Virus record (IMG/VR): IMGVR_UViG_3300009285_011564
Coordinates: 1 to 37,687 of that record
Source: a virus
DNA: 37,687 nt
Strand: one strand, 5' to 3'
Below, one piece after another: positions 8,617 to 25,952 of the stretch (position 1 is its first letter; each line of letters starts with the position of its first letter). The position numbers and the translations under genes are program-made. The notes beneath the pieces were generated by a model that was not told the DNA's origin, made no database searches, and was given only the letters and a program-made list of their open reading frames with translations.

Positions 8617-9852
8617 TTATCCCAATGCGATCCCTGCTTCATTAACACCAATTCCAAAAGTCTTGTCACAAGCATCGAGTAAATTATCTACTTGGTCATC
8701 GTATTCGTGCTGGTCGTTAGAAGTAAAACCTTCACATTCAGTTAAAAAATCTGAAAGAAACCAAGCATCTTCTGGAAGAAAAACATATCCGCTTTTGATA
8801 TATCCCAGAACATCCAAACATCTCGTATACTTATCTTTATTTCTTTGAACCGCTTCAATTGAAACGCTACCCTTCCTTTGTATTGATTGAATCAAACCAG
8901 TACCCGAAGCTTTATCCTCAATGTAGAAAGTACGGAGAAAACCATTTTTATTTGCGACGTGCTTGTTCCAGAAGGATGCTGCTTGTTTTTCAAGTTCTGG
9001 AGCTTCCCACTTTCCCCGAATTAAATCAATTAAATGGAGACGCTTTTCCATTGTTACTCCCCAACAAGCGAACACAGAGTAATCGTTGGCTTCTTTAGTC
9101 TTTTGAGCAGTGTCTCCTGTTAAAAATCTATATTCAAAAACTGGTTCTTTCTGAAAATACTTGAACCATTCAGTTCGGATAATCAAGGTTTCTGAGAGTC
9201 TGCGTGGTTCTCCGAGATAGATATGTTTGAAAAGTTCGGGTTTGTTTTCTTTACAATGATCAATTTCCGTTTTGATTTCGTCGGAGAGGAGTCCTGTTCC
9301 TTCAAGAATATTATAATTGTAAAAAGCAGAATAGGTTCTTGGCGGAGGACTTTTAATGAAACGCTCAAAAACAGGGTCGTTCTTTTTCATACGGTTAAAA
9401 GTTACCACAATTTGAGATCCTGGTTTTCTGATAGTTGGAATTAAAATATCTAAACTTTCATCACTTACTGATTGTCCTTCTTCAATCCAGACCTTGTCAA
9501 TTCCTTCAAAACTTTTTATTCCGTCTTTGTTCCCGTGTAAACCCTTGAATATAAATTCTGAGCCTGTGCGTTGATTTTTTATTGTGTCTTCGGTAATACG
9601 ATAGGAAGGTATTTCATATTTTTGGACTAAATCAGAGAGTAATTTGTGGACGGAATCTTTAATTGTATTTTGAATCTCTCGGGTACACAACATTCTCAAC
9701 CTCGCTCCGCAACCTTGTATTAAAAATGCAAGTGCAGTGTGATAAGATTTTGCTCCATACCTTCCGCCGTAGTAAACAATGTAACGCCACTTGGGATTAA
9801 AAAGTTCTTCATATTCCTTTAGAAATTTTATTTTTAACTTTTTGGTTTCCAT
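8617..9852 (-). CDS. terL: Terminase large subunit
   Basis: The protein has 411 residues of the Terminase_3 (PBSX XtmB-like) type. The ATPase has a Walker A-like 'GGRYGAKSY' (Lys35), a Walker B 'KVWIEEGQ' (about 120-127) and a coupling 'VVTFNR' segment. The RNase-H-fold nuclease has 'FLTGDTAQK', 'FYIEDKASGTG' and the terminal 'YDDQVDNLLDA'. It drives DNA packaging at the portal. Its start overlaps the small subunit gene by 44 nt and lacks a clear ribosome site, suggesting translational coupling. The circular contig fits headful packaging of permuted DNA (inference). Confidence 0.94.
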   Translation of the reverse strand: METKKLKIKFLKEYEELFNPKWRYIVYYGGRYGAKSYHTALAFLIQGCGARLRMLCTREIQNTIKDSVHKLLSDLVQKYEIPSYRITEDTIKNQRTGSEFIFKGLHGNKDGIKSFEGIDKVWIEEGQSVSDESLDILIPTIRKPGSQIVVTFNRMKKNDPVFERFIKSPPPRTYSAFYNYNILEGTGLLSDEIKTEIDHCKENKPELFKHIYLGEPRRLSETLIIRTEWFKYFQKEPVFEYRFLTGDTAQKTKEANDYSVFACWGVTMEKRLHLIDLIRGKWEAPELEKQAASFWNKHVANKNGFLRTFYIEDKASGTGLIQSIQRKGSVSIEAVQRNKDKYTRCLDVLGYIKSGYVFLPEDAWFLSDFLTECEGFTSNDQHEYDDQVDNLLDACDKTFGIGVNEAGIALG

Positions 9853-10114
9853 TTATAAACTCAACGGTGATCGCTGAAACTACATCATCATCTCCGAAGC
9901 CGAGTTTGATATCTTTTGGAAGAAGGTCTACTGCTATTCTATAAAAATCTTTTCGATTGAGTGGATTGCGTGCCCAAGTTACCATCGATTGAACACCGCC
10001 TATTTTCTGAAACACAGAGAGTATATCGTCCCGAAGTTTTGAATATTTGTTTCGTGCTCCCTTCGGACGACCGTTTGGATTTGCTATTTCACCTTTACGG
10101 AATAAATGTTTCAT
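9809..10114 (-). CDS. Terminase small subunit-like protein
   Basis: The protein has 101 residues. The N-terminal 'RKGEIANPNGRPKGARNKYSK' is the basic DUF5681-like motif found at the start of many phage small-terminase proteins, followed by helices ('LRDDILSVFQKIGGV', 'RKDFYRIAVDLLPKDI'). It is the first gene of the leftward late unit and overlaps terL. Role: recognition of the packaging site and loading of TerL (family knowledge). The gene starts about 40 nt after the predicted promoter; its ribosome site is weak. Confidence 0.8.
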   Translation of the reverse strand: MKHLFRKGEIANPNGRPKGARNKYSKLRDDILSVFQKIGGVQSMVTWARNPLNRKDFYRIAVDLLPKDIKLGFGDDDVVSAITVEFINGNQKVKNKISKGI

Positions 10115-10157
10115 ATAATTTTCTATTTTTTAAATCTAAGATTTTTTAACTACCTCC

Positions 10158-10186
10158 ATTATAACAAATTTATTTTTTAATTGCAA
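10158..10186 (-). promoter_or_regulatory. Late promoter, leftward
   Basis: On the minus strand there is a -35-like TTGCAA (10181-10186), a 17-nt spacer and a perfect -10 TATAAT (10158-10163), with TG one base upstream (extended -10). It points to the terminase genes and would drive the whole late unit. A repeat-A copy lies 6 bp upstream of the -35. Confidence 0.75.
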
Positions 10187-10192
10187 AATTCT

Positions 10193-10214
10193 TAGCTCAA
10201 CCAAAGCACCCCTT
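10193..10214 (+). repeat. Repeat A, copy 1
   Basis: TAGCTCAAccaAAGCACCCCTT, direct orientation. It lies immediately upstream of the -35 of the leftward late promoter, so it may also be a regulator-binding site. Confidence 0.7.
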
Positions 10215-10228
10215 CAAAAAAGAAATAA

Positions 10229-10242
10229 TTTTTACTCTGCAC
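10229..10242 (+). repeat. Repeat B, copy 1
   Basis: TTTTTACTCTGCAC, direct orientation, containing the 11-bp core TTTACTCTGCA shared by four sites in this control region. Confidence 0.65.
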
Positions 10243-10381
10243 ACACCTTCTCAAATTCACATTTTTCTGAAATAAACCTAAAATAATACGTTTATTCCAA
10301 AAATTTACTTCCGATTCCCCGCAATTTACTCTCTTAGCACCTTCAACAAAATGAGCGGTTAGGAATTTTGACCTATTTTTG

Positions 10382-10393
10382 TGCAGAGTAAAT
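10382..10393 (-). repeat. Repeat B, copy 2 (inverted)
   Basis: TGCAGAGTAAAT on the plus strand is the reverse complement of the repeat B core. A degenerate direct copy, ATTTACTCTCTTAGCACC, lies at about 10324-10341 and seems to blend the ends of both repeat families. Confidence 0.65.
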
Positions 10394-10419
10394 TTTTCAT
10401 CTCAGAAGACAGAACCACC

Positions 10420-10432
10420 TTTTACTCTGCAT
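10420..10432 (+). repeat. Repeat B, copy 3
   Basis: TTTTACTCTGCAT, direct orientation, 12 bp upstream of repeat A copy 2. Confidence 0.65.
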
Positions 10433-10443
10433 CGACATAGAGG

Positions 10444-10467
10444 CTAGCTCAAGAAGAGCACCCCTCC
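10444..10467 (+). repeat. Repeat A, copy 2 (left arm)
   Basis: CTAGCTCAAgaagAGCACCCC followed by TCC; direct orientation; the left arm of the candidate origin. Confidence 0.75.
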
Positions 10468-10557
10468 CCGTATATAATCTGATTTAAGGTAATATTTTAC
10501 TTTATTTAATAAAAATAAAATTATATGTTAATTAAGAAAACATACATATATATGGGT

Positions 10558-10579
10558 GGGGGGGTGTCGGTTGAGCTAG
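10558..10579 (-). repeat. Repeat A, copy 3 (inverted, right arm)
   Basis: The minus strand reads CTAGCTCAACCGACACCCCC, the inverted form of repeat A. Together with copy 2 it flanks the AT-rich core. Confidence 0.72.
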
Positions 10580-10632
10580 CCCCTACAACCTAAGAAGGTA
10601 AAGATGCTAACCTCTTCTGAGCTCTCTGCATC

Positions 10633-10667
10633 AAAAAACGTAACCGCCCAAACGGTGAGCGTTTTTG
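10633..10667. terminator. Hairpin terminator inside the control region
   Basis: AAAAACG, ta, ACCG, a 6-nt loop, CGGT, gag, CGTTTTT: a stem of 7 + 4 bp with an A run on one side and a T run on the other, so it could stop transcription in either direction. It separates the candidate origin from the early promoter and could define the end of a short untranslated RNA. Confidence 0.5.
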
Positions 10668-10753
10668 CTAGTTTACTCCTCAAAATTTTCCAACTCAATC
10701 GTTTTTTGAACCCATCCAAACACCCAAAAAAACACCCAAAAAACCTCGAAATC

Positions 10754-10776
10754 CTAGCTCAACGGAAGCACCCCTT
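10754..10776 (+). repeat. Repeat A, copy 4
   Basis: CTAGCTCAAcggAAGCACCCCTT, direct orientation, about 175 bp to the right of the inverted copy. Confidence 0.75.
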
Positions 10777-11068
10777 TAGTTATGTTTTGACCAATTTAAT
10801 TTGAGAATAATTTTTTCAAAAATCGCAAAATAAAATTTTTTTCAAATTTTTTCTCAAATTTTTTGAATTAAATCCTAAACCCTGAAACCCAAACATCTAC
10901 CAATTTAAAAATCCAAAATGGAAAATTTTTCCCTTTTTTCAAAAACCCACCCAAATTTCCAGTCCACCTCCAAACCCTGTTTTTAGAGAGTAAAAAAATC
11001 GAAATGGCTTACCTCGGGAAAAAAATCGACATTTGAAAAAATCAACCGTTTTCCCTCTCAAAATCAAA

Positions 11069-11081
11069 ATTTACTCTGCAT
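11069..11081 (+). repeat. Repeat B, copy 4
   Basis: ATTTACTCTGCAT, direct orientation, 32 bp upstream of the -10 of the rightward promoter. A degenerate inverted copy lies at 10985-10994 (AGAGAGTAAA). Confidence 0.65.
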
Positions 11082-11105
11082 AAAATAAATCCCCCAAAAC
11101 GTCTA

Positions 11106-11119
11106 AAATTTGTTATAAA
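11106..11119 (+). promoter_or_regulatory. Early promoter, rightward (extended -10)
   Basis: AAATTTGTTATAAA contains TG-T-TATAAA, an extended -10 element. I see no good -35 at 16-18 nt upstream, so it may need an activator or rely on the extended -10. The first 13 bases are identical to the -10 region of the leftward promoter. The first early gene starts about 42 nt downstream. Confidence 0.45.
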
Positions 11120-11160
11120 GTATGTATAGCAGTTTGAAACAAAAAAGGAGGTGAAATCCA

Positions 11161-11325
11161 ATGTTCAGTAAAATCGGATACAAAATTGAAGACCTCGAAA
11201 AAGAATTAAAAAGCGAAAACCTAAAATACTGTCTCCAACATTTTGAAGAATATAACAAAGAAGAACAATCCATCATTAGTGAATTGTTGGTTGTTAGTTT
11301 AAAAAATAAAAAAGGAGGTGAATAA
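11161..11325 (+). CDS. Small acidic/helical protein, first early gene
   Basis: This 54-residue protein (MFSKIGYKIEDLEKELKSE...) is charged and predicted to be helical, with one Cys. An AAAAAAGGAGGTG ribosome site lies 9 nt before the ATG. The end of the gene encodes KKGGE, which is the ribosome site of the next gene read as protein. Function unknown; as the first early product it may act on the host (inference). Confidence 0.7.
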   Translation: MFSKIGYKIEDLEKELKSENLKYCLQHFEEYNKEEQSIISELLVVSLKNKKGGE

Positions 11326-13545: not shown

Positions 13546-14284
13546 AAAATACCTAATCTGGCACGATGAATTAAATCCTGGAATGTTCAAGATTGTGAAC
13601 GACGAAACCGATGAAACCGTTCTTCGCAATCTTCCCAATGCTGAAGCTGCCGAGCAAACCGTAGCTAAATTTAAGGATGAATCTGTATTTAAACAAGCAA
13701 TGAATCGAAAACCTAAAGGAGGTGAATCTAAGTCTAATAATTTTGTTGGTATCCGTTCAAGATCAAAAGTCAAAGGAGGATCTATGATAAAAGAAGAAAC
13801 TGTCCCAGAGGTAGTTGAAGAAGTTACCGCGTTGGTTGAAGAAGAAGAGTTAGTAAATGAAGAGATCGAAAAAGAGCTCGAATCAAAAAAGGAAGTCAAA
13901 CCTGTCTCAAAACCCACCAAGGCTTCCAAAACAGCCGAAAAGAAGCCACTTCTCAAACCAACCAAAGAAGTAAAACCGCAAAAACCCACCAAATTAGCAA
14001 ATGCGGAGTCTAAAAGAGCTGTAGGCAAAACCACTAAATTAGGAGTTCAAGCAGCTTGGTTTTACATTCTCCAAAAAAATGAATCTTCTAAGCCTAAACT
14101 TTCCGATGAACAAATAACTGCTTGGATGTACAAAGAGTTCCCCGAAAAAAAATCTGCTTGCTTTAAGCAAGTTTCTGGAGCACGACGTAAATTCAATCTC
14201 GGACTTTTCGGAAAACTTCCGAAAGGATTTAATCTTTCTGTAAAAAAAGTTGAGAAGAAAATTTCAGCACCAAAAGGAAAATAA
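13505..14284 (+). CDS. Hypothetical protein with internal ribosome sites and basic C-terminal domain
   Basis: The frame has 259 residues from the only upstream ATG, which lacks a ribosome site and lies inside the previous gene. A perfect AAGGAGGTGA is placed 8 nt before an in-frame ATC (13538), so initiation at AUC, or at the GTG at 13529, is plausible. Regions: an N-terminal ~70-residue domain, a Glu/Lys/Pro-rich linker (about 95-170), then a compact C-terminal domain (about 175-259; 'KLGVQAAWFYILQKN', 'ITAWMYKEFPEKKSACFKQV'). Two internal AAAGGAGG motifs are present; the second (13772-13780) precedes an in-frame ATG at 13784 that could give a separate 166-residue product. Function unknown; possibly nucleic-acid binding. 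Confidence 0.65.
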   Translation: MKISQKKEVRTINKKYLIWHDELNPGMFKIVNDETDETVLRNLPNAEAAEQTVAKFKDESVFKQAMNRKPKGGESKSNNFVGIRSRSKVKGGSMIKEETVPEVVEEVTALVEEEELVNEEIEKELESKKEVKPVSKPTKASKTAEKKPLLKPTKEVKPQKPTKLANAESKRAVGKTTKLGVQAAWFYILQKNESSKPKLSDEQITAWMYKEFPEKKSACFKQVSGARRKFNLGLFGKLPKGFNLSVKKVEKKISAPKGK

Positions 14285-14285
14285 G

Positions 14286-15632
14286 GTGAAGATAAAAAAA
14301 TACCTTCCAGATCGCAACCGCCAATTACTCGACTATCAACGTAGAGCATTGGCTTGGGGATTGAGACAAAACAATCCTGCTTGGTTCATCGATATGAGAC
14401 TCGGGAAAAGTCTCCTGACGATTGAGTGGGTTTTGCGGAAGAACTTAAAACGTGTTCTTGTTCTGTGCCCGAAGACAGCAATTGTTAGTTGGGTGAATGA
14501 GCTGCGTCTAGAAGGTATTAAACCACACATCCTTGAAACTCCTCAAGACAAATTTGAAGCCTCACGTTTTGAACCAGAGACCTGGAAAGACGGTTGGTTT
14601 TTAACAAATTTTCAAACTATCTTAACCGTCCCACTCTTCAATTCTAGATGGGACTGTATCGTCATCGACGAATCAAGCAAAATGAAAAATCCAAAAGCTC
14701 TCTTAACAAAACGCCTTCTTCAATATTATAAATCTGTTCCGCACAAGATTCTTTTGAGTGGTACACCGACTCCTGAATCAATCTCTGAATCTATCACTCA
14801 ACTCATATTCAAGGACGGGAGTTGCTTGGATTGTCGGGACTATTGGACTTTTCGTTTTCGCTATATGCATTTGGAAGGCTATGACTGGATTTTGAATCCT
14901 GGGGTTTACGATCGCTTGAAAACAGCTTTGCACCACACCGCCTACTTTCTTTCCCAAAAGGCAGCAGGTTGGGACACCACTGAAAAGCGAGAAGTGATCT
15001 CTTTCACTTTAAATGAAATTCAAAAAAAGCATATCAAGGAACTTTTGAAGCATTTTGAAACCACTATTGGAACAAAGACTTTGTCTACTAAATATGTTCT
15101 CCCACAAACGCTTTGGATGTCGAGAATAGCAAGTGGCTATCTCGAAAATGCGATCTTAAATCCAGCGAAAGAATTGTGGCTGCTCAACCACTTAAAAGAA
15201 AACCCGACCAAACATTTTATAATTTGGTTTCGGTTCAATGAAGAATTGTTTCGTATTCAGAAAATTCTTGAAGGAGAAGGAATACCCCATCTCGCTCTTT
15301 GGGGAGTGAAGAATCTTCTTGAACGCATCGACGCTCAATCCCAATTTCAAGCAGGGAAAATTCGATTGCTCCTTTTACAAACCAAACTCGGACAATTTTC
15401 CTTGAATCTCTCAAAAGCGGATGCTTCAATTTATTTTTCTAACTCTTATTCCTTGGAAGAACGCATTCAATCCGAGAAAAGGATTTCCCATATGGAAAGA
15501 ACCATACCGCCGCACTATATAGATTTAATTTTTGAAAAGTCAATTGAGAAAGAGATTTTAGAGATGCTGAAAAATAAAACCTTTAGTTTCAGAATGCTCT
15601 GGGTACGTCTAAAAAGTTTAACTGAGGAGTAA
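14286..15632 (+). CDS. SNF2-like superfamily 2 helicase
   Basis: The protein has 448 residues from a GTG at 14286 (AAAAGGA upstream). It is a two-domain SF2 helicase: 'LLDYQRRALAW' (Q-motif-like), Walker A variant 'DMRLGKS' (Lys41), 'RVLVLCPKTAIVSW' (Ia), the DEAH-type box 'IDESSKMKNP' (~127-136), 'LLSGTPTPE' (III), and in the second domain 'FIIWFRFNEEL' (IV), 'LLLLQTKLGQFSLNL' (V) and 'ERIQSEKRISHME' (VI). Such compact SNF2-like helicases are common in phage replication-recombination modules, where they may act in fork remodelling or branch migration. It is followed by a RuvC-like resolvase. Confidence 0.9.
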   Translation: MKIKKYLPDRNRQLLDYQRRALAWGLRQNNPAWFIDMRLGKSLLTIEWVLRKNLKRVLVLCPKTAIVSWVNELRLEGIKPHILETPQDKFEASRFEPETWKDGWFLTNFQTILTVPLFNSRWDCIVIDESSKMKNPKALLTKRLLQYYKSVPHKILLSGTPTPESISESITQLIFKDGSCLDCRDYWTFRFRYMHLEGYDWILNPGVYDRLKTALHHTAYFLSQKAAGWDTTEKREVISFTLNEIQKKHIKELLKHFETTIGTKTLSTKYVLPQTLWMSRIASGYLENAILNPAKELWLLNHLKENPTKHFIIWFRFNEELFRIQKILEGEGIPHLALWGVKNLLERIDAQSQFQAGKIRLLLLQTKLGQFSLNLSKADASIYFSNSYSLEERIQSEKRISHMERTIPPHYIDLIFEKSIEKEILEMLKNKTFSFRMLWVRLKSLTEE

Positions 15633-18626: not shown

Positions 18627-19055
18627 ATGCAAAAAAAAATTTACCTTGCTGGACCCTTTTTCAATCCCGAGCAAATTGAAGTTGCTGATAGAATTGAGAG
18701 TGCTTGCATAATTTTGAATATACCATTTTTTTCTCCAAGGTTGGAGTGTTTCTGCCCTCCGAATGCGACTCCGAAACAACGAGCACAGACTTTTCAAATG
18801 AACATCATCAACATTGACTGTGCTAAATTTGTTTTTGCTCGGATAGATGATTTCGATCCTGGAACAATGTGGGAACTTGGGTTTGCTTTCTCCAGAAATA
18901 TCCCTTGTTTTGGGTATACGGTTGTTCCAGATCGAGGATTGAATTTGATGCTCGCAGAAAGTGGAATGAAGCTTGTTCAAGGTTGGAAAAATATTGAAGA
19001 CTTTTTGCGTGGGAATAAATCTGTTGCTAAAAGTTGGAGAAAGGAGATTGTATGA
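18627..19055 (+). CDS. Nucleoside 2-deoxyribosyltransferase family protein
   Basis: The protein has 142 residues with the PF05014 pattern: 'IYLAGPFF' (6-12), 'DDFDPGTMWELGFA' with the putative catalytic Glu83, and 'GLNLMLAES' (104-112), which in the family contributes the substrate Asn/Glu. Members swap or hydrolyse the base on 2'-deoxynucleosides or dNMPs. It is the first gene after the strong hairpin and heads a run of nucleotide-related genes. Substrate cannot be read from the sequence; a nucleotide hydrolase (DNPH1-like) is an alternative. Confidence 0.85.
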   Translation: MQKKIYLAGPFFNPEQIEVADRIESACIILNIPFFSPRLECFCPPNATPKQRAQTFQMNIINIDCAKFVFARIDDFDPGTMWELGFAFSRNIPCFGYTVVPDRGLNLMLAESGMKLVQGWKNIEDFLRGNKSVAKSWRKEIV

Positions 19056-19654
19056 TTGATTTGAAACAAGTTTTAATTGGAGAGCCTACGCGTTTAAGGT
19101 ATGTGAAAAGATTTTCCATCTGCCCAAAGGTTCACGAAGAATCTGTTGCTGAACATTCTTACTATGTTGCTTTCATTTGTTTGATGTTGGGAGAAGATTT
19201 AATGAATCAAGGATTTGTGAAATTGAATCTGGGGATGCTTTTAAGTCGTGCTTTGATCCACGATCTTGATGAGGTTTTCTCTGGAGATTTTATTCGTATG
19301 TTCAAACACCAGAATATTATTGTTGAAGAGGCTATAAATGCAACATCAAAAATCCTCGTGGAAAGATTTACTCAAAATTATCCTGCAGGAAAAAAACTTC
19401 TTGATTATTGGGAAAATAGCAAGAGTGAAGACCTCGAAGGTTCTATCCTGGCCTTTGCGGATTTTCTCTCAGTACTCTCCTATATTTGGCAAGAGATTCA
19501 CGCAGGTAATCATATAATGTTTACACAATTAGATGAGCTTGAAAAATTTTGTGGCTTATTTTCAAGCACTAAATTTGAGCCGCTTTGGGAATATCAAATG
19601 GAGGCACAATTTATGCTGAAAGAATTAAGGAGGATAGAATGCAAGACAAAATAA
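19052..19654 (+). CDS. HD-domain 5'-deoxynucleotidase, YfbR-like
   Basis: The protein has 200 residues; ATG 19052 overlaps the previous stop (ATGA), with AAAGGAG upstream. Metal and catalytic residues line up with the YfbR/HD_3 family: His35 ('SVAEHSYY'), His70-Asp71 ('LIHDLDE'), Glu74, Asp79 ('SGDF') and Asp137 ('FADFLS'). Known members remove the 5' phosphate from dNMPs. In a phage this could drain an unwanted dNMP so that it is not built into DNA. It overlaps the kinase gene by 16 nt. Confidence 0.87.
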   Translation: MIDLKQVLIGEPTRLRYVKRFSICPKVHEESVAEHSYYVAFICLMLGEDLMNQGFVKLNLGMLLSRALIHDLDEVFSGDFIRMFKHQNIIVEEAINATSKILVERFTQNYPAGKKLLDYWENSKSEDLEGSILAFADFLSVLSYIWQEIHAGNHIMFTQLDELEKFCGLFSSTKFEPLWEYQMEAQFMLKELRRIECKTK

Positions 19655-20127
19655 AAGAAAATTGGAAATTAGAAAACCCTTTCCGTAAAAAATTGGTTTT
19701 CTTTGAAGGACTTGATAAATCTGGTAAATCAACACTTTGTCGAAGAGTTCGTTTTGAAGGAAAGCATACCATACCCTTCTATGAAAGGGGATTCGCAGGA
19801 AGATATAATTTTTACCATTTTAACAAAGAAGAAGACAATTTTCCTGTGAAGGATTGGTCGTTTTTGGAAAATATTTTAATTGAAAAAAAGATGTATGCGA
19901 TAATTTGGTTGCGTACTTCCTATGCTAATGTCATTAAACGCCATATCGAAGCAGGAGAAGTTTGCGATTTTACTGTCGATCAATTAAGGGAACAGGACTT
20001 GAATTATGCCAAGCACATCCATCATCTTCAGGATTATTATTCCATTCCTGTCCTTGAATTGAGAACCGACAAACTTTCTTCCGACCAATGCGTAGAAGAG
20101 ATCTTAAAATGGACAGGAGTGTTATGA
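19639..20127 (+). CDS. Deoxynucleoside monophosphate kinase-like protein
   Basis: The protein has 162 residues from ATG 19639 (AAGGAGG upstream). The P-loop 'FFEGLDKSGKST' (~21-32) matches thymidylate-kinase-like enzymes (EGxDGxGKST). 'PFYERGFAGRYNFYH' and 'IIWLRTS' resemble the substrate and Walker B regions, and 'DLNYAKHIHHLQDYY' the C-terminal lid helix region. It is shorter than bacterial Tmk (~210). Substrate unknown: dTMP, or a modified dNMP made by the neighbours (inference). Its stop overlaps the next start (ATGA). Confidence 0.75.
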   Translation: MQDKIKENWKLENPFRKKLVFFEGLDKSGKSTLCRRVRFEGKHTIPFYERGFAGRYNFYHFNKEEDNFPVKDWSFLENILIEKKMYAIIWLRTSYANVIKRHIEAGEVCDFTVDQLREQDLNYAKHIHHLQDYYSIPVLELRTDKLSSDQCVEEILKWTGVL

Positions 20128-21125
20128 AAGAATCTTTATTGATATACTTAAAATTTATTCAGTATGGTGTTGGCTATCTTGCAGGACAAATTGAATTGAC
20201 CTCCGCTTGCAAACAAAGATGTACTTTTTGTAAATCTTGGAAAGACCACGTCTCTGGAAAATATAGAGCAGCTTTTCGCTATGAAAAAATCTGCGACATT
20301 CTCCAACAATTGTCTGAAATTCCTTATTTTGAAAATCTTACCTTTACAGGAGGAGAGCCACAATGTTGGGAGCACCTCGAAAAATTACTCAAGGAATTCG
20401 GTAGAAAATTGCCATTTGATTTGGGAATAAATACGACTTTAGTTGAACCAATTAATTTCGATCTCTGGAGAAATTTCAATTCCATTCGAGTCTCTTTAGA
20501 TTCTTTGAATCCCAAGACATACAAAATTTTAAGGGGAGTCTCTACAAATCCTGAAATTGTTTTGAAACGTCTCGAGAAGCTCTCCCATCCGAATTGGAGT
20601 GTAATGGTTTGTGTTTCGGAGAATAATCTTGAAGAGATTCCAGAAATTATCGAGAGATTAAAGAAGATGCGTTCACTCCCAAGGAAAGTAATGTTTTTGC
20701 CTGCTTTAGGGAGAGAGAAAAATTTCTTTGATATGGAGAGATATGAAAGTCTTATAGAAAAATTCACCAATCAAATCGATCTCCCTTTTCAAACCAATTT
20801 TGCGGAGGATGTTTCTAAACTCAAGAAGCTCTATGATATATCGGAGGTGCCTTGTTCCATTGGCAGAACCACTTTCCACATTAAAGCAGATGGAGATTTG
20901 TTTCCTTGTTGTTTAATTGGTGGAGAAGCCATTGATACACATCAAGATTTTTGTTTTGGAAATGTTTATCAAAATACCCTTCAAGAAATTCAAAATTCAA
21001 ATATGAGTCTACCACTCCATTATTCTGGAAAAAATTCTCCGTGCCTTAAGGTCTGTCAATGGAAACAAATGGCAATGAATATTGCAACAAAAAATTCTTG
21101 GTCAAAAAAACTTTCTATGCCTTAA
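20124..21125 (+). CDS. Radical SAM enzyme with SPASM-like C-terminus
   Basis: The protein has 333 residues. The cluster motif CKQRCTFC (Cys29, Cys33, Cys36) and 'FTGGEPQCWE' (GGE) define a radical SAM core. The C-terminal 'VPCSIGRTTFHIKADGDLFPCC...' with later 'FCFGNV' and 'CLKVC' is a SPASM/twitch-like auxiliary Fe-S region. I see no sign of QueE, NrdG or lipoate-type enzymes. SPASM proteins typically modify peptides, but related enzymes alter other substrates. Four-nt overlap with the kinase gene and close spacing to ThyX suggest a role in nucleotide or DNA-base modification (inference). Confidence 0.85.
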   Translation: MKESLLIYLKFIQYGVGYLAGQIELTSACKQRCTFCKSWKDHVSGKYRAAFRYEKICDILQQLSEIPYFENLTFTGGEPQCWEHLEKLLKEFGRKLPFDLGINTTLVEPINFDLWRNFNSIRVSLDSLNPKTYKILRGVSTNPEIVLKRLEKLSHPNWSVMVCVSENNLEEIPEIIERLKKMRSLPRKVMFLPALGREKNFFDMERYESLIEKFTNQIDLPFQTNFAEDVSKLKKLYDISEVPCSIGRTTFHIKADGDLFPCCLIGGEAIDTHQDFCFGNVYQNTLQEIQNSNMSLPLHYSGKNSPCLKVCQWKQMAMNIATKNSWSKKLSMP

Positions 21126-21136
21126 AGGAGGCTTGG

Positions 21137-22063
21137 ATGCAAGTAAATGTTGAATTAATAAGCTGGACAAAAGATCCTATTGAAACAATTTATCTTCTTT
21201 GGGAAGCTTCTAGAAAAAAAGAAGCTATCCCAACTATCGAAGAATTGAAATTGGTACTACATACAGATCCAGAACTCGCAGACAGAGTTTTTGAGACATT
21301 CCAAAAAGTTCTAACAAGTGCTATACCAGTTTCTGAAAATATAAATTTCATCTTTCTCCTAGAAAATGTTTCTATCTCTTTTCGGGAACAGATGGTACGC
21401 CACCGAGTAGGTGTGAAAGTCGGAGAAAGAATTGGTATGGACTATTTTCCCGATGTCCACGATTCAACTTGGTGGTCTCAGAGTATGCGGGTTTTAGATA
21501 TGGGAGATTTTGCAGAGAAGACTGCTTATAATATCCCAGACAGTATTCGTGTGAATGAAGAAGCATTGAATGTCTTACAGACTCAAATGCACTGTGCCGC
21601 TCAAGCTTATCGAGAATTGATCAAACTTGGTATTGCTGCAGAGGATGCTCGAGAAGTTATTCCGCTTGCCACCCAACACAGGATTTCTTGGAGTCTCAAT
21701 CTTGCTACCTTCGCACATATCCTTTCAAAGAGAAGTTGTTGGATTCTTCAACTCGGACTTTGGGAACCTGTTTTGATGGGAATGCTTGAAGAACTTTGTG
21801 AAAAAGTGAATCCTATTTTCAGCATTCTTGCGACTCCGCCTTGTATGAAAGGAGATTTTTTCAAACGTTGCTGTTTTGATTTTGATAATGAAAAACGTTG
21901 CAAGGGAGAAGATCCTTTACCGCCTTGTTCTCTTTATCTTTCCCATACGGATGTGCAGCCAGAAAATTTGAAAGAAATTGAAGACCGTAAAGATTTCCAA
22001 AAGATGTGTTTGAAATATAAAAAATTTTGGAGGAGAGATGTTTCTACAGGAAAATTGTTTTAA
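21137..22063 (+). CDS. thyX: ThyX-like flavin-dependent thymidylate synthase, atypical signature
   Basis: The protein has 308 residues from ATG 21137 (AAAGGAGG upstream). 'NVSISFREQMVRHR' (~77-90) is the ThyX flavin-binding motif. The following SxNExSxRY part is not directly adjacent: about 20 residues (VGVKVGERIGMDYF...) intervene before 'WWSQSMRV', whose Ser116 and Arg118 can align with SxR. The C-terminal half keeps 'VIPLATQHRISWSLNLATFAHILSKR...LQLGLWE', like the second ThyX motif, and ends with a Cys-rich region ('PPCMKGDFFKRCC...RCKGEDPLPPC'). Probable reaction: methylation of dUMP with folate and NADPH. A changed substrate is possible. Confidence 0.82.
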   Translation: MQVNVELISWTKDPIETIYLLWEASRKKEAIPTIEELKLVLHTDPELADRVFETFQKVLTSAIPVSENINFIFLLENVSISFREQMVRHRVGVKVGERIGMDYFPDVHDSTWWSQSMRVLDMGDFAEKTAYNIPDSIRVNEEALNVLQTQMHCAAQAYRELIKLGIAAEDAREVIPLATQHRISWSLNLATFAHILSKRSCWILQLGLWEPVLMGMLEELCEKVNPIFSILATPPCMKGDFFKRCCFDFDNEKRCKGEDPLPPCSLYLSHTDVQPENLKEIEDRKDFQKMCLKYKKFWRRDVSTGKLF

Positions 22064-23894
22064 AGTTGCGATCGATACCGAGACTACTGGCCTAAACTCT
22101 TGGACAGGAGATCGTCCTTTTATTGTGAGTTGGTGTTGGTTCAACAAAGAAGAAACTCAAGGATTGATTCGCTGGGAGGTAGATCCTTTTACTCGAGTGG
22201 TCAGACCACTCGCTCGAGATTTGGAAATTTTAAGAGAGGTACTGGAAAATCCAACTATCGTCAAGGTTTTTCACAATGCAAAATTTGATGTGCGAATGTT
22301 AGAAACAGTAGGTCTGAAGGTTTTGGGAAGAATTGAAGATACATCTTTTATGGTTCGTTGTTTCCATAACGATCTTCCGACTTATAGTTTAAAACCTTTA
22401 TGTAAAAAAATTCTTGGAATTGGAGATGAAGAATTAATTGATCTGAAAAAAGCTTGTATGCAAGCTCGTCGGGAAGGGAAGAAGAAAAATTATTCGTTTT
22501 CCGAGAGTCTCGAAGCAGATTATTGGATGGTTGAAAACCAAAAATTAGTGGAAAAATATGCAACTCAAGATGCATTCAGAACAAAGCGACTTTTTGAATA
22601 TCTTGAAAAACAACTTGGAAAAGATAACCAAAAAAACATTTATGAAAAAGAATTAAAACTTTTTCCTATAACTTATGAAATGGAGACTCGTGGGATTGCT
22701 TTGAATCCAAAGATTTTGGATGCGGAAATTTCTTACCACGAAAAACATCTTATAGAAAGCTATAAGGAAGTTTTGAAAATTGGTGGAGTCAAAGAACTCA
22801 ATTTAAAATCTCAACCTCAAGTTGCGGAATTGCTTTACGGAAAACTCAAAATTCTCTGCAAAGATTTTACCGCCAAAGGTAAACGAGCTGTGGATGTAAA
22901 TGCGATGAAGAGAATTAATCATCCTATTATTGATCCCTTTGCTGAGTACAAAGCTTCTAAGCACGCTCTTGCAAATTTTTTTATGCTCTATAAAAAACAA
23001 TCTGCCTATCGTCCCAATGGAGAACTTTATCTTCATCCAGACTTTCAGCAAATGGGAGCAAAAACAGGACGCTTCTCTTGTCGGAAACCAAATATGCAAA
23101 ACGTCGCCAATGCTTTGACTACTCGTTCTTTAAAACCAATTCAAGCAAGACGTCCTTTCCGTCCTCCACAAGGATTTACTTGGTATACTTTTGATTATTC
23201 TCAATTGGAGGTTTGGATCTTTGCGATGTTTTCTGGAGAAAAATTAATGTTGGATGCCCTACTCTCCAACCGAGATGTTCACAATGAAACTGCAAATCAT
23301 ATCTGGGGAAAAGGCAGAGATATTGTTGCAGAAGAGAAAGTCAAAGAAGGAAAATCTAATACACGTGCTCGTGCGAAGATGATGGTTTTCGGAGTGGTCT
23401 ATGGAATGGGTGTAGGAGCGGCTCAAGCATTGATAGGATGTACTGCGACTGAAGCTCGAAACTATCTCGACGAATTCTATAAAGCATTCCCAGGCATTAA
23501 ACAATTTATGCAAACCTTCTCCAGGAAAGCTGAAAGAGACGGTTTCATTGAAAACGCCTATGGAAGACGTTATTTCATTGAACCAGGACTCTCCTACCGT
23601 TCGGTTAATTATTTGGTACAAGGCTCTGGAGCGGATCTCTTGAAAGAAAAGATGGTTGAGACTACACAATATTTAAAAAAGAAAAGAATTGATGGTGGTC
23701 TCGTTATGACAATCCACGACGAACTTATCTTTGAAATTAAAAATACTTTTGCTACTAAAAGAGTACTCCTAGATATAAAAGATATAATGGAAGACCACCA
23801 CGGTGTTTTTCCGATAGTAAAAAAATTCAAAGTAGAGATAGCAAAAATTACCTCAAACGGTTCTTGGGACAAAAAAGAGAAATTGAAACTTTAA
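22038..23894 (+). CDS. polA: DNA polymerase I (family A) with 3'-5' exonuclease domain
   Basis: The protein has 618 residues; GGAGGAG precedes the start, which overlaps thyX by 26 nt. The exonuclease domain (~1-190) has 'AIDTETTG' (Asp13, Glu15), 'VFHNAKFDVRML' and 'YATQDAFRT'. The polymerase domain has 'GRFSCRKPNMQNV', motif A 'DYSQLEVW' (Asp386), motif B 'RARAKMMVFGVVYGMG', and motif C 'TIHDELIFE' (Asp561). No 5'-3' exonuclease domain. This is the replicative polymerase of a T7/podovirus-like type adopted by many small phages. Confidence 0.95.
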   Translation: MFLQENCFKVAIDTETTGLNSWTGDRPFIVSWCWFNKEETQGLIRWEVDPFTRVVRPLARDLEILREVLENPTIVKVFHNAKFDVRMLETVGLKVLGRIEDTSFMVRCFHNDLPTYSLKPLCKKILGIGDEELIDLKKACMQARREGKKKNYSFSESLEADYWMVENQKLVEKYATQDAFRTKRLFEYLEKQLGKDNQKNIYEKELKLFPITYEMETRGIALNPKILDAEISYHEKHLIESYKEVLKIGGVKELNLKSQPQVAELLYGKLKILCKDFTAKGKRAVDVNAMKRINHPIIDPFAEYKASKHALANFFMLYKKQSAYRPNGELYLHPDFQQMGAKTGRFSCRKPNMQNVANALTTRSLKPIQARRPFRPPQGFTWYTFDYSQLEVWIFAMFSGEKLMLDALLSNRDVHNETANHIWGKGRDIVAEEKVKEGKSNTRARAKMMVFGVVYGMGVGAAQALIGCTATEARNYLDEFYKAFPGIKQFMQTFSRKAERDGFIENAYGRRYFIEPGLSYRSVNYLVQGSGADLLKEKMVETTQYLKKKRIDGGLVMTIHDELIFEIKNTFATKRVLLDIKDIMEDHHGVFPIVKKFKVEIAKITSNGSWDKKEKLKL

Positions 23895-23906: not shown

Positions 23907-25952
23907 ATGGAAGTCAAGCCAAAAGATATTTTGAAGCTTTTAGAAGAACACCACAATACACCCTCAAAAGAAATAGGAGATCAATTAATTGGAGATTGTC
24001 TTTTTTGCGGAAAACCCGAACACCTCTATATGAATAAAGAAAAAGGTTTGTGGGATTGCAAAGTCTGTGGTTCAAAAGGCAATCTCGAAAACTATCTTTA
24101 TCAACTCGGAATTCACTATCATAAAAATTTATATCATCCAAAGAATATTCTGAAACTTAAAGCTCTTTCCGCAGACCGAGGACTTCCTGTAAACGCATTC
24201 AAAAATTGGTTGGTAGGTTGGGACGACATTGGTAAACGATATACAATTCCAGTTTTGGTTGGAACTAATTCTTGTTCAGATATTCGGATCTATAAAATTG
24301 GAATGAAGACAAGATCTTCTAGCGGTTCAAAGACAGGATTGATAAACATACACAAGATAGAAGACAAAAAGCCTATCTATGTTTGTGAAGGAGAATGGGA
24401 TGGAATGGCATTGGATTGGTTATTAAAAAAACTTGAACTTGAAGCGACTGTTGTTGCAGTTCCAGGAGCAAACACCTTCAAAAAAGAATGGATACCTTCT
24501 TTCAGAAATTGCAAAGTTCAACTCCTCTACGACAATGATTCCGCTGGAGAACAAGCCGAGATTAAAGTTCAACCGCTTCTTTCAGGGACTGTTCGTTCAA
24601 TTGGGTATTTAAATTGGTTGAGTGGTCTGTCGACAGGATTCGACGTTCGAGATTGGATTAAATATGGAATTAAAGTTAGCAAATTGAGAGGTTGTTGGAA
24701 AAATCTTCAGAAGATGTTTGTTGCCAATCCCCGAATCTCTAAGATAGATACATTGGTTTCTTTGGAAACCGAAGAAGAGAAACTCAAAGAGAATCTAAAA
24801 GTTGATATTGAAAAAGAGATGTTGATCTATCGAAGATGGATGCACCTTCCAGATCCATATGTTTTGGACATTATTTTTGGAACCATTTTTGCCAATCTTT
24901 TAATGAGTGGAGATCCGATATGGATGTTTTTAATTGCTCCTCCTGGAGGGAGTAAATCTGAATTGTTAATGAGTTTAATAAAGTGCCAGAGCGTGGTTTG
25001 TTTAACTTCATTGACACCCCACTCTCTAATCTCTGGATTCTCTTGGGGTACAGACAAAAAAGACCCCTCTCTGCTTCCGCAACTCGATGGAAAAGTTTTA
25101 GTGCTCAAAGATTTCACCACAATAACTTCAATGCATTTTACCGCCCGAGACGAGATCTTTGGAATTTTGAGGGACGCTTACGATGGCAAAACCGAGAAAC
25201 AATTCGGGACAGGAATCCGTCGAGAATATAAGAGCAAATTTGGAATTCTCGCAGGTACTACTCCAGTTATTGATACCTTTTCAACTATTCACCAGAGTCT
25301 TGGAGAGAGATTTTTGAAATATCGTATCGAGATAGATTCTAAAGATACTGAAGAAAAAAAGATCCTTCAAGCCATCTCTAACATCAATAACGAAGTTACT
25401 ATGCGAGGAGAACTTCAAGACGCTGCGGCGAGGATTGTTTCAAAAGAAAATTTAGAAGATTTACCAATTTTTCCTGAAAAATATTTAAAACGAGTAACAA
25501 GCTTAGCACAATTCTGTGCAAGAATGCGAGGAGTGGTCTTGAGAGATAATTATACACAACAAGTCCTCTATCGAGCTTCAACTGAAGTTGGAACACGTCT
25601 CGCAAAGCAATTGATGAAACTCGGAATTGGTATCGGAATTTTTCGAGGTAAAAAAGAACTTGGAGATTATGAATGCAATTGTGTAAGCCGAGTGGCGATG
25701 CACACGTGCCCAGAGAGGTTGGTCTCAATTGTTAAAGCGATCTATCGTTCTAGAATGGAAGACGGTATAGAAGAATTAAAAACGAAAGATATTGCAAACT
25801 ATTCTCGGCTTCCTATTTCAACAGTTTTCCGTTTGCTCGAAGACTTATATCTTTTGAAAGTCGTAAAACGACAAGGCGAGGGTTCAAAATTTTATTGGGG
25901 TTTAGAATCACATATCTTGAAATTGATAGAGACTTCCAAAATATTTGGTTGA
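23907..25952 (+). CDS. Primase-helicase
   Basis: The protein has 681 residues. An N-terminal zinc ribbon has Cys31, Cys34, Cys51 and Cys54. A TOPRIM-type primase domain has 'YVCEGEWDGMALDW' (~157-170) and 'LLYDNDSAGEQA' (Asp209). A P-loop ATPase domain starts near 'LIAPPGGSKSELL' (~340-352), which has GGSKS in place of GxGKS. The last ~70 residues form a winged-helix-like region ('TKDIANYSRLPISTVFRLLEDLYLLKVVKR'). It would prime and unwind DNA for the family A polymerase just upstream. Last gene of the early unit. Confidence 0.85.
   Translation: MEVKPKDILKLLEEHHNTPSKEIGDQLIGDCLFCGKPEHLYMNKEKGLWDCKVCGSKGNLENYLYQLGIHYHKNLYHPKNILKLKALSADRGLPVNAFKNWLVGWDDIGKRYTIPVLVGTNSCSDIRIYKIGMKTRSSSGSKTGLINIHKIEDKKPIYVCEGEWDGMALDWLLKKLELEATVVAVPGANTFKKEWIPSFRNCKVQLLYDNDSAGEQAEIKVQPLLSGTVRSIGYLNWLSGLSTGFDVRDWIKYGIKVSKLRGCWKNLQKMFVANPRISKIDTLVSLETEEEKLKENLKVDIEKEMLIYRRWMHLPDPYVLDIIFGTIFANLLMSGDPIWMFLIAPPGGSKSELLMSLIKCQSVVCLTSLTPHSLISGFSWGTDKKDPSLLPQLDGKVLVLKDFTTITSMHFTARDEIFGILRDAYDGKTEKQFGTGIRREYKSKFGILAGTTPVIDTFSTIHQSLGERFLKYRIEIDSKDTEEKKILQAISNINNEVTMRGELQDAAARIVSKENLEDLPIFPEKYLKRVTSLAQFCARMRGVVLRDNYTQQVLYRASTEVGTRLAKQLMKLGIGIGIFRGKKELGDYECNCVSRVAMHTCPERLVSIVKAIYRSRMEDGIEELKTKDIANYSRLPISTVFRLLEDLYLLKVVKRQGEGSKFYWGLESHILKLIETSKIFG

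Follow-up and report, generated by a model that had tools for sequence, protein, structure and literature searches.

An inverted repeat with an A/T-rich core at phage operon starts as a candidate replication origin

The window analysed here is the whole of a 37,687-bp IMG/VR virus record (IMGVR_UViG_3300009285_011564), which bears a 77-bp direct terminal repeat and so probably represents a phage genome in circularised form. On the minus strand, the late genes (terminase, portal, protease) point leftward from ~10.1 kb. Rightward from 11.2 kb, on the plus strand, lie genes for SNF2 helicase, RuvC-like, Cas4-like, Sak4, SSB-like, PolA and primase proteins, the first early gene starting at 11161. 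The two transcription units therefore diverge, as the initial annotation had stated, and the stretch between them is gene-free as described there: an ORF scan of the window found no ORF of at least 70 aa in 10115-11102. Positions 10001-11000, largely non-coding, have a strong GC skew of -0.30 and no AT skew, the + strand being C-rich and including CACCCAAAAAAACACCC at ~10720. The window also carries a nucleotide-metabolism block at 18627-22063 (nucleoside deoxyribosyltransferase, YfbR-like HD hydrolase, radical SAM/SPASM protein and ThyX).

Within the gene-free stretch, two 39-nt arms with 72% ungapped complementarity face each other across 70 nt (Table 1); when small gaps are allowed, the stem becomes almost continuous. 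Facing arms and a core of ~70 bp had been described before; the arms, then put at ~36 bp, are slightly longer, and the core, then called almost pure A/T, is A/T-rich at 87% (61/70). The gapped inverted-repeat score of 23.5 is the highest in the window (runner-up, 17.7). It was reached in none of 20 shuffles in a smaller set, in none of 200 whole-window dinucleotide shuffles (maximum 20.4) and in none of 500 local dinucleotide shuffles (maximum 18.7), confirming that the inverted repeat around 10.5 kb is a real, non-chance feature. Immediately to its right, at 10643-10661, the minus strand carries a terminator-like hairpin, ACCGTTTGGGCGGT with a T-run after it. A second contig with the element matches the window at 99.99% identity across 13,233 bp and so does not count as independent.

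The arm motif CTAGCTCAANNNNANCACCCC, allowing at most three mismatches, occurs at 10192 (+), 10444 (+), 10559 (-) and 10754 (+) and nowhere else in the window. The chance mean is 0.11 and none of 100 shuffles held four copies, so that the two extra direct copies reported in the initial annotation (there at 10193 and 10754) are real. In all three + strand copies the distance from AGCTCAA to AGCACCCC, measured by eye, is 11 bp, and the same spacing is found in several relatives' arms, for example AAACGCTATAAAAACGCTATA. As in iteron origins, the four binding-site-like copies are clustered, all within 10192-10774 in one non-coding region, and an unstable A/T-rich stretch lies beside the repeats: 0.44% of the genome's windows of the same length are less stable than 10477-10546. 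A second binding-site-like family, TTTACTCTGCA, is absent from the initial annotation; it has four exact copies (expected, 0.045), one of them inverted, confined to the same intergenic region. The sequence TAGCTCAANNNNAGCACC recalls a tRNA D-arm, and ARAGORN gave no tRNA in the window.

Table 1. Features of the window and of related loci, and assignment of the compared contigs by operon layout
Feature	Position	Strand	Sequence or remark
Left arm	10438..10476	+	GGCTAGCTCAA, CACCCC, C-rich, TATATA at inner end
A/T-rich core, candidate DNA-unwinding element	10477..10546		61/70 A/T
Right arm	10547..10585	-	Inverted copy of left arm
Single direct arm-motif copy	10192..10212	+	TTAGCTCAACCAAAGCACCCC
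Single direct arm-motif copy	10754..10774	+	CTAGCTCAACGGAAGCACCCC
Second repeat family, copy 1	10231..10241	+	TTTACTCTGCA
Second repeat family, copy 2	10382..10392	-	TTTACTCTGCA, inverted
Second repeat family, copy 3	10421..10431	+	TTTACTCTGCA
Second repeat family, copy 4	11070..11080	+	TTTACTCTGCA
Large terminase subunit, late-module marker	8617..9852	-	With 9809-10114, on the opposite side of the element from the replication genes
SNF2-type helicase, early-module marker for mapping	14250..15632	+	
Family A DNA polymerase, early-module marker	22038..23894	+	
Primase-helicase, proposed initiator	23907..25952	+	C-terminal winged helix 25653-25949
Actinophage repeat loci (Sparcetus, Hager, Wollypog)	L221:33168-33297; L223 upstream of 3099; L222 upstream of 3045		
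Divergent operons, one element			Window, G012, G016, G017, G031, G039, G047
Tandem, element before each operon (12)			G004, G006, G010, G020, G026, G027, G028, G035, G038, G041, G043, G044
Tandem, one full element or one junction only (5)			G003, G007, G021, G034, G036
Contig cut or second junction unclear (5)			G008, G025, G033, G042, G045
Element none or uncertain (9)			G009, G013, G018, G019, G023, G030, G032, G040, G048

Related phages were collected by several routes. The terminase retrieved few relatives, and two of them (L003 and L004, both fragments) held no inverted repeat scoring at least 16 in the loci examined. A single-sequence search with the primase gave 13 loci; with an alignment it gave 155 encoding stretches, 80 of them retained, and the comparison set comprised 37 contigs plus the window, 38 in all. 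A fixed criterion (intergenic, score at least 19, spacer 38-110 bp, core A/T above that of the genome plus 0.08) was passed by 22 of the 38 primase contigs versus 1 of 13 controls. The count is 19 of 35 when G043, G044 and G045 are left out, contigs subject to selection bias in that they were fetched after the inverted repeat had already been seen in them. The sole passing control, Microbacterium phage Sparcetus, encodes a distant relative of the primase. Some elements score below the fixed criterion and came to light by inspection of the places where they were expected: several second elements, and those of G016, G017 and G039. Nine contigs, several of them short, have no clear element. C-run/G-run pairs, a weak but independent detector, occur in 12 of the 38 contigs against 6.0 expected from shuffles, and in 0 of 13 controls against 0.7.

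What recurs is the anatomy, not the sequence. The inverted-repeat scan found long intergenic arms around an A/T-rich core, mostly 50-80 bp long, in most contigs; read inward, the arms have first a repeat (AAAACGC or CGTAGATC, for example), then in many cases a C or G run, and in many cases TATATA. G003 (53% primase identity) has GAGCTAGC and the C-run in common with the window, and the nearest relative, G016 (65%), has arms AAACGTAGATCA...GGGGGGG around 93 bp at a divergent junction like the window's. The search of related phages for the motif, proposed in the initial annotation, thus bore out the design and not the motif, which at up to two mismatches is absent from all 14 other relatives' records (a fifteenth record is the same phage). 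An exact search of IMG/VR with the arm motif returned eight stretches: one (L006) is the same phage population, and the other seven have a single exact match each, that in L005 lying inside a gene. When the window's element was used directly as a DNA query against 40 records, it gave short matches only, in five records. Within a genome the copies resemble each other (G004, G006, G020, G028, G041, G043, G044), and do so more closely than they resemble those of most other genomes, which is what a single trans-acting reader would lead one to expect. Genome-wide arm searches in 25 genomes (G016 and G017 not among them) found hardly any other sites in most, with weak scattered matches in G026, G034 and G044. 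Across 33 elements, a median of 0.14% of equal-length windows are less stable than the core (exceptions, G033 at 30% and G035 at 28%), a result that is partly circular because A/T-richness helped to choose the elements.

Beyond the main set, inverted CACAATC-type repeats, ~11 bp apart, lie directly upstream of the primase/helicase gene in Sparcetus and Hager, both cultured Krampusvirus phages; those of Wollypog are looser. Further observations concern individual relatives. In L139, binned as Candidatus Falkowbacteria (possibly a host hint, possibly a binning artefact), an A/T-rich core of 164 bp separates the arms of a long inverted repeat at 13638-13882, beside a primase relative of 35% identity. 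In L159/L160 (G025, 21,397 bp) the 105-bp terminal repeat and the inverted-repeat element are one and the same, and the apparent circle may therefore stem from a contig that breaks off at two identical copies, one on each side of the replication module. L198 and L159 (G035 and G025) encode GTP cyclohydrolase, QueE, QueC, a queuine tRNA-ribosyltransferase-like protein, presumably DpdA-like, and uracil-DNA glycosylase, a gene set likely to indicate 7-deazaguanine DNA modification; no such modification genes were seen among the window proteins scanned.

The elements sit at the starts of the early and late operons, one where these diverge and usually two where they are in tandem. By layout classes assigned by hand and not blind, 7 of 7 contigs with divergent operons have one element at the start-start junction, and 12 of the 17 tandem contigs judged to hold both junctions have one before each operon (in G010, G035 and G038 the second is weak); G003 has a single arm at its other junction. 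Some elements end ~20 bp or less from a start codon or its ribosome-binding site. Because copy number follows operon layout, a serious rival to an origin is an element controlling early and late transcription, in which a phage regulator bound to the arms would turn promoters within or next to the core on and off, divergent operons sharing one element and tandem operons having one each; we give this explanation appreciable but clearly minority weight. It gains nothing from a promoter test covering sigma-70-type hexamers (-35/-10): in 32 tandem elements such promoters do not exceed shuffles (p 0.24) and favour neither strand (the operon strand scores better in 15, the opposite one in 15, and 2 are tied; p 0.42), and the window scores 6.4 and 6.2 against a shuffle mean of 6.36. 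Moreover, full arm symmetry is retained in tandem genomes, where transcription is needed in one direction only, and a late operon would not be expected to switch on with the early one via the same site. Nor is a recognised regulator family broadly common to the relatives. Among the seven broadest protein families in the 38 contigs, six belong to replication or recombination and one has no Pfam or PHROG match; none is a recognised transcription factor. In phage phi29, inverted binding sites for a promoter-bound regulator likewise lie between divergent early and late operons; the phi29 sites are tied to promoters, whereas no enrichment of sigma-70-like promoters accompanies the elements here.

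Position also bears on a packaging site (cos or pac) beside the terminase genes. The window gene adjoining the terminase starts 324 bp from the element, and in several relatives the late-operon element lies 0.6-2.4 kb upstream of terL; however, elements precede the early operon too, many genomes carry two, and the G003 element is 18 kb from terL, which makes packaging very improbable. We hold it equally improbable that the repeat acts at the RNA level, as a transcribed hairpin serving as attenuator, processing site or small RNA. The + strand of the window element does fold strongly (-56.8 kcal/mol, z -6.1), yet any DNA inverted repeat folds as RNA, and 9801-11300 contains no Rfam family at gathering score. 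On the operon strand, arm mismatches number 31 of G-U type versus 27 of A-C type (p 0.69, with sequences too diverged to align); with no excess of G-U, the symmetry looks like a property of the DNA. The outer ends, TAGRGGCTAGC, look as though flanked by TA and would suit a miniature transposable element with terminal inverted repeats and a TA target duplication. Such an element is hardly credible given the fixed site at module junctions of divergent phages, the single direct arm copies nearby and the few or no scattered copies.

The primase gene encodes a candidate for the protein that reads the arms. Its 681-aa product has an N-terminal zinc-ribbon and Toprim primase. The predicted fold of its AAA+ domain matches MCM helicase in Foldseek (E 6e-11), and structure comparison gave MCM at Z 19.5 (rmsd 4.2 over 294 residues), with MCM-family chains making up all 50 of the matches listed. 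The C-terminal 99 aa are modelled as a winged helix (pLDDT 90) with ArsR/MarR/TubR-like structure matches and profile matches to IclR/ArsR-type regulators near E 0.001. On these models, the domain plan is that of self-loading initiator helicases. Among the papers listed by our literature searches, neither the element nor a Toprim-MCM fusion is described for these phages.

Several known replicons offer comparison. The alpha protein of satellite phage P4 combines primase, helicase and origin binding and acts with two cis sites, ori and crr; the window protein would likewise unite the three activities, origin binding being our proposal, although its primase family and helicase type are unlike those of alpha. 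In SaPIs, iterons flank an AT-rich region, and the helicases of SaPI and SCCmec elements are MCM-like. The self-loading initiators of these elements (Rep, Cch, Cch2) recognise iterons, short origin repeats, through a C-terminal domain and apparently bind as two hexamers (PMC7581432). The window protein resembles them in its MCM-like AAA+ helicase domain, seen in the predicted fold, and in a C-terminal DNA-binding domain, predicted by model and profile as a winged helix; short repeats at the proposed origin are a further likeness. It differs in also having a Toprim primase, and a Pfam scan of 23907-25952 found no DUF927 or Primase_Cterm and only a sub-threshold Toprim_2, so that it may work like a SaPI-type system and is not called a member of one. 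Further differences are the one or two copies per genome, the strictly inverted arms and the position: where a SaPI-type origin directly follows its rep gene, the element (10438-10585) lies 13 kb from the primase-helicase gene (23907-25952). Bacillus phage SPP1 has two origins, oriL and oriR, with repeats and an AT-rich unwinding element and one of them in the late region, a precedent for two origins per phage (PMC6316719). Unlike the window arms, the SPP1 repeats are described as direct, and SPP1 uses an initiator (gp38), a loader (gp39) and a DnaB-type helicase (gp40), a set not recognised among the window genes scanned.

We propose that the element is the phage's replication origin, of the iteron and unwinding-element type. 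A phage protein would bind the inverted arms flanking the A/T-rich core, the core would melt, and two helicase rings would be set up facing away from each other; replication would then start at the element. For the binder, the phage's own primase-helicase is the likeliest candidate: the arms would be recognised by its C-terminal winged helix, and its MCM-like AAA+ ring would be self-loading, needing no separate initiator or loader. Since the element sits at operon starts, the same binding may also steer early and late transcription. We put the chance that the element is an origin bound by this primase-helicase, perhaps with operon control as a second role, at about even.

Support for an origin comes from the non-chance repeat and motif, the same design in relatives, the unstable cores and the modelled primase. 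It comes also from the symmetry kept in tandem genomes, the likeness of copies within a genome, the replicative character of the broad families and the inverted repeats directly upstream of the primase/helicase gene in Sparcetus and Hager. Counting against it are the distance to the primase gene, the contigs with no clear element, the absence of the window's motif from relatives and the copy number, one where operons diverge and usually two in tandem, which a plain origin does not need. Arm similarity also does not track the winged helix above other proteins: over 21 genomes rho is 0.195 versus 0.379 for the SNF2 helicase, a co-variation analysis that we regard as uninformative. Nor does skew help. 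GC skew in the window tracks gene strand, and in seven genomes with genes mostly on one strand the third-position skew does not switch at the element. The GC-skew check proposed in the initial annotation therefore lends an origin no support, and skew was dropped as uninformative; unidirectional or mixed replication would likewise leave no switch. The origin reading of that annotation is thus supported in part, by origin-like anatomy, recurrence in relatives, a melting-prone core and a candidate partner in the winged-helix primase-helicase, while skew gives it nothing and the tie to operon starts keeps a purely regulatory element alive.

Anatomy, recurrence and placement of the element are solid; its function as an origin is inferred. 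A bolder and rather unlikely generalisation is that these phages represent a widespread replicon type, in which a Toprim primase, an MCM-like AAA+ ring and a winged helix in one protein would serve as primase, helicase and initiator, assembling a head-to-head double ring on inverted arms, with the same sites acting as the early/late operon switch, which would account for their number following operon layout. The length of most cores is close to what an MCM double hexamer holds. Origins of uncultivated phages are rarely known. Here an element of constant anatomy and divergent sequence is predictable in dozens of contigs, and with it comes a candidate initiator. The DNA-binding domain of the latter is of a size that permits direct assay. 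If the proposal is true, phages would possess an MCM-like, self-loading primase-helicase replicon, and a single cis site would tie replication to the early/late layout of the genome.
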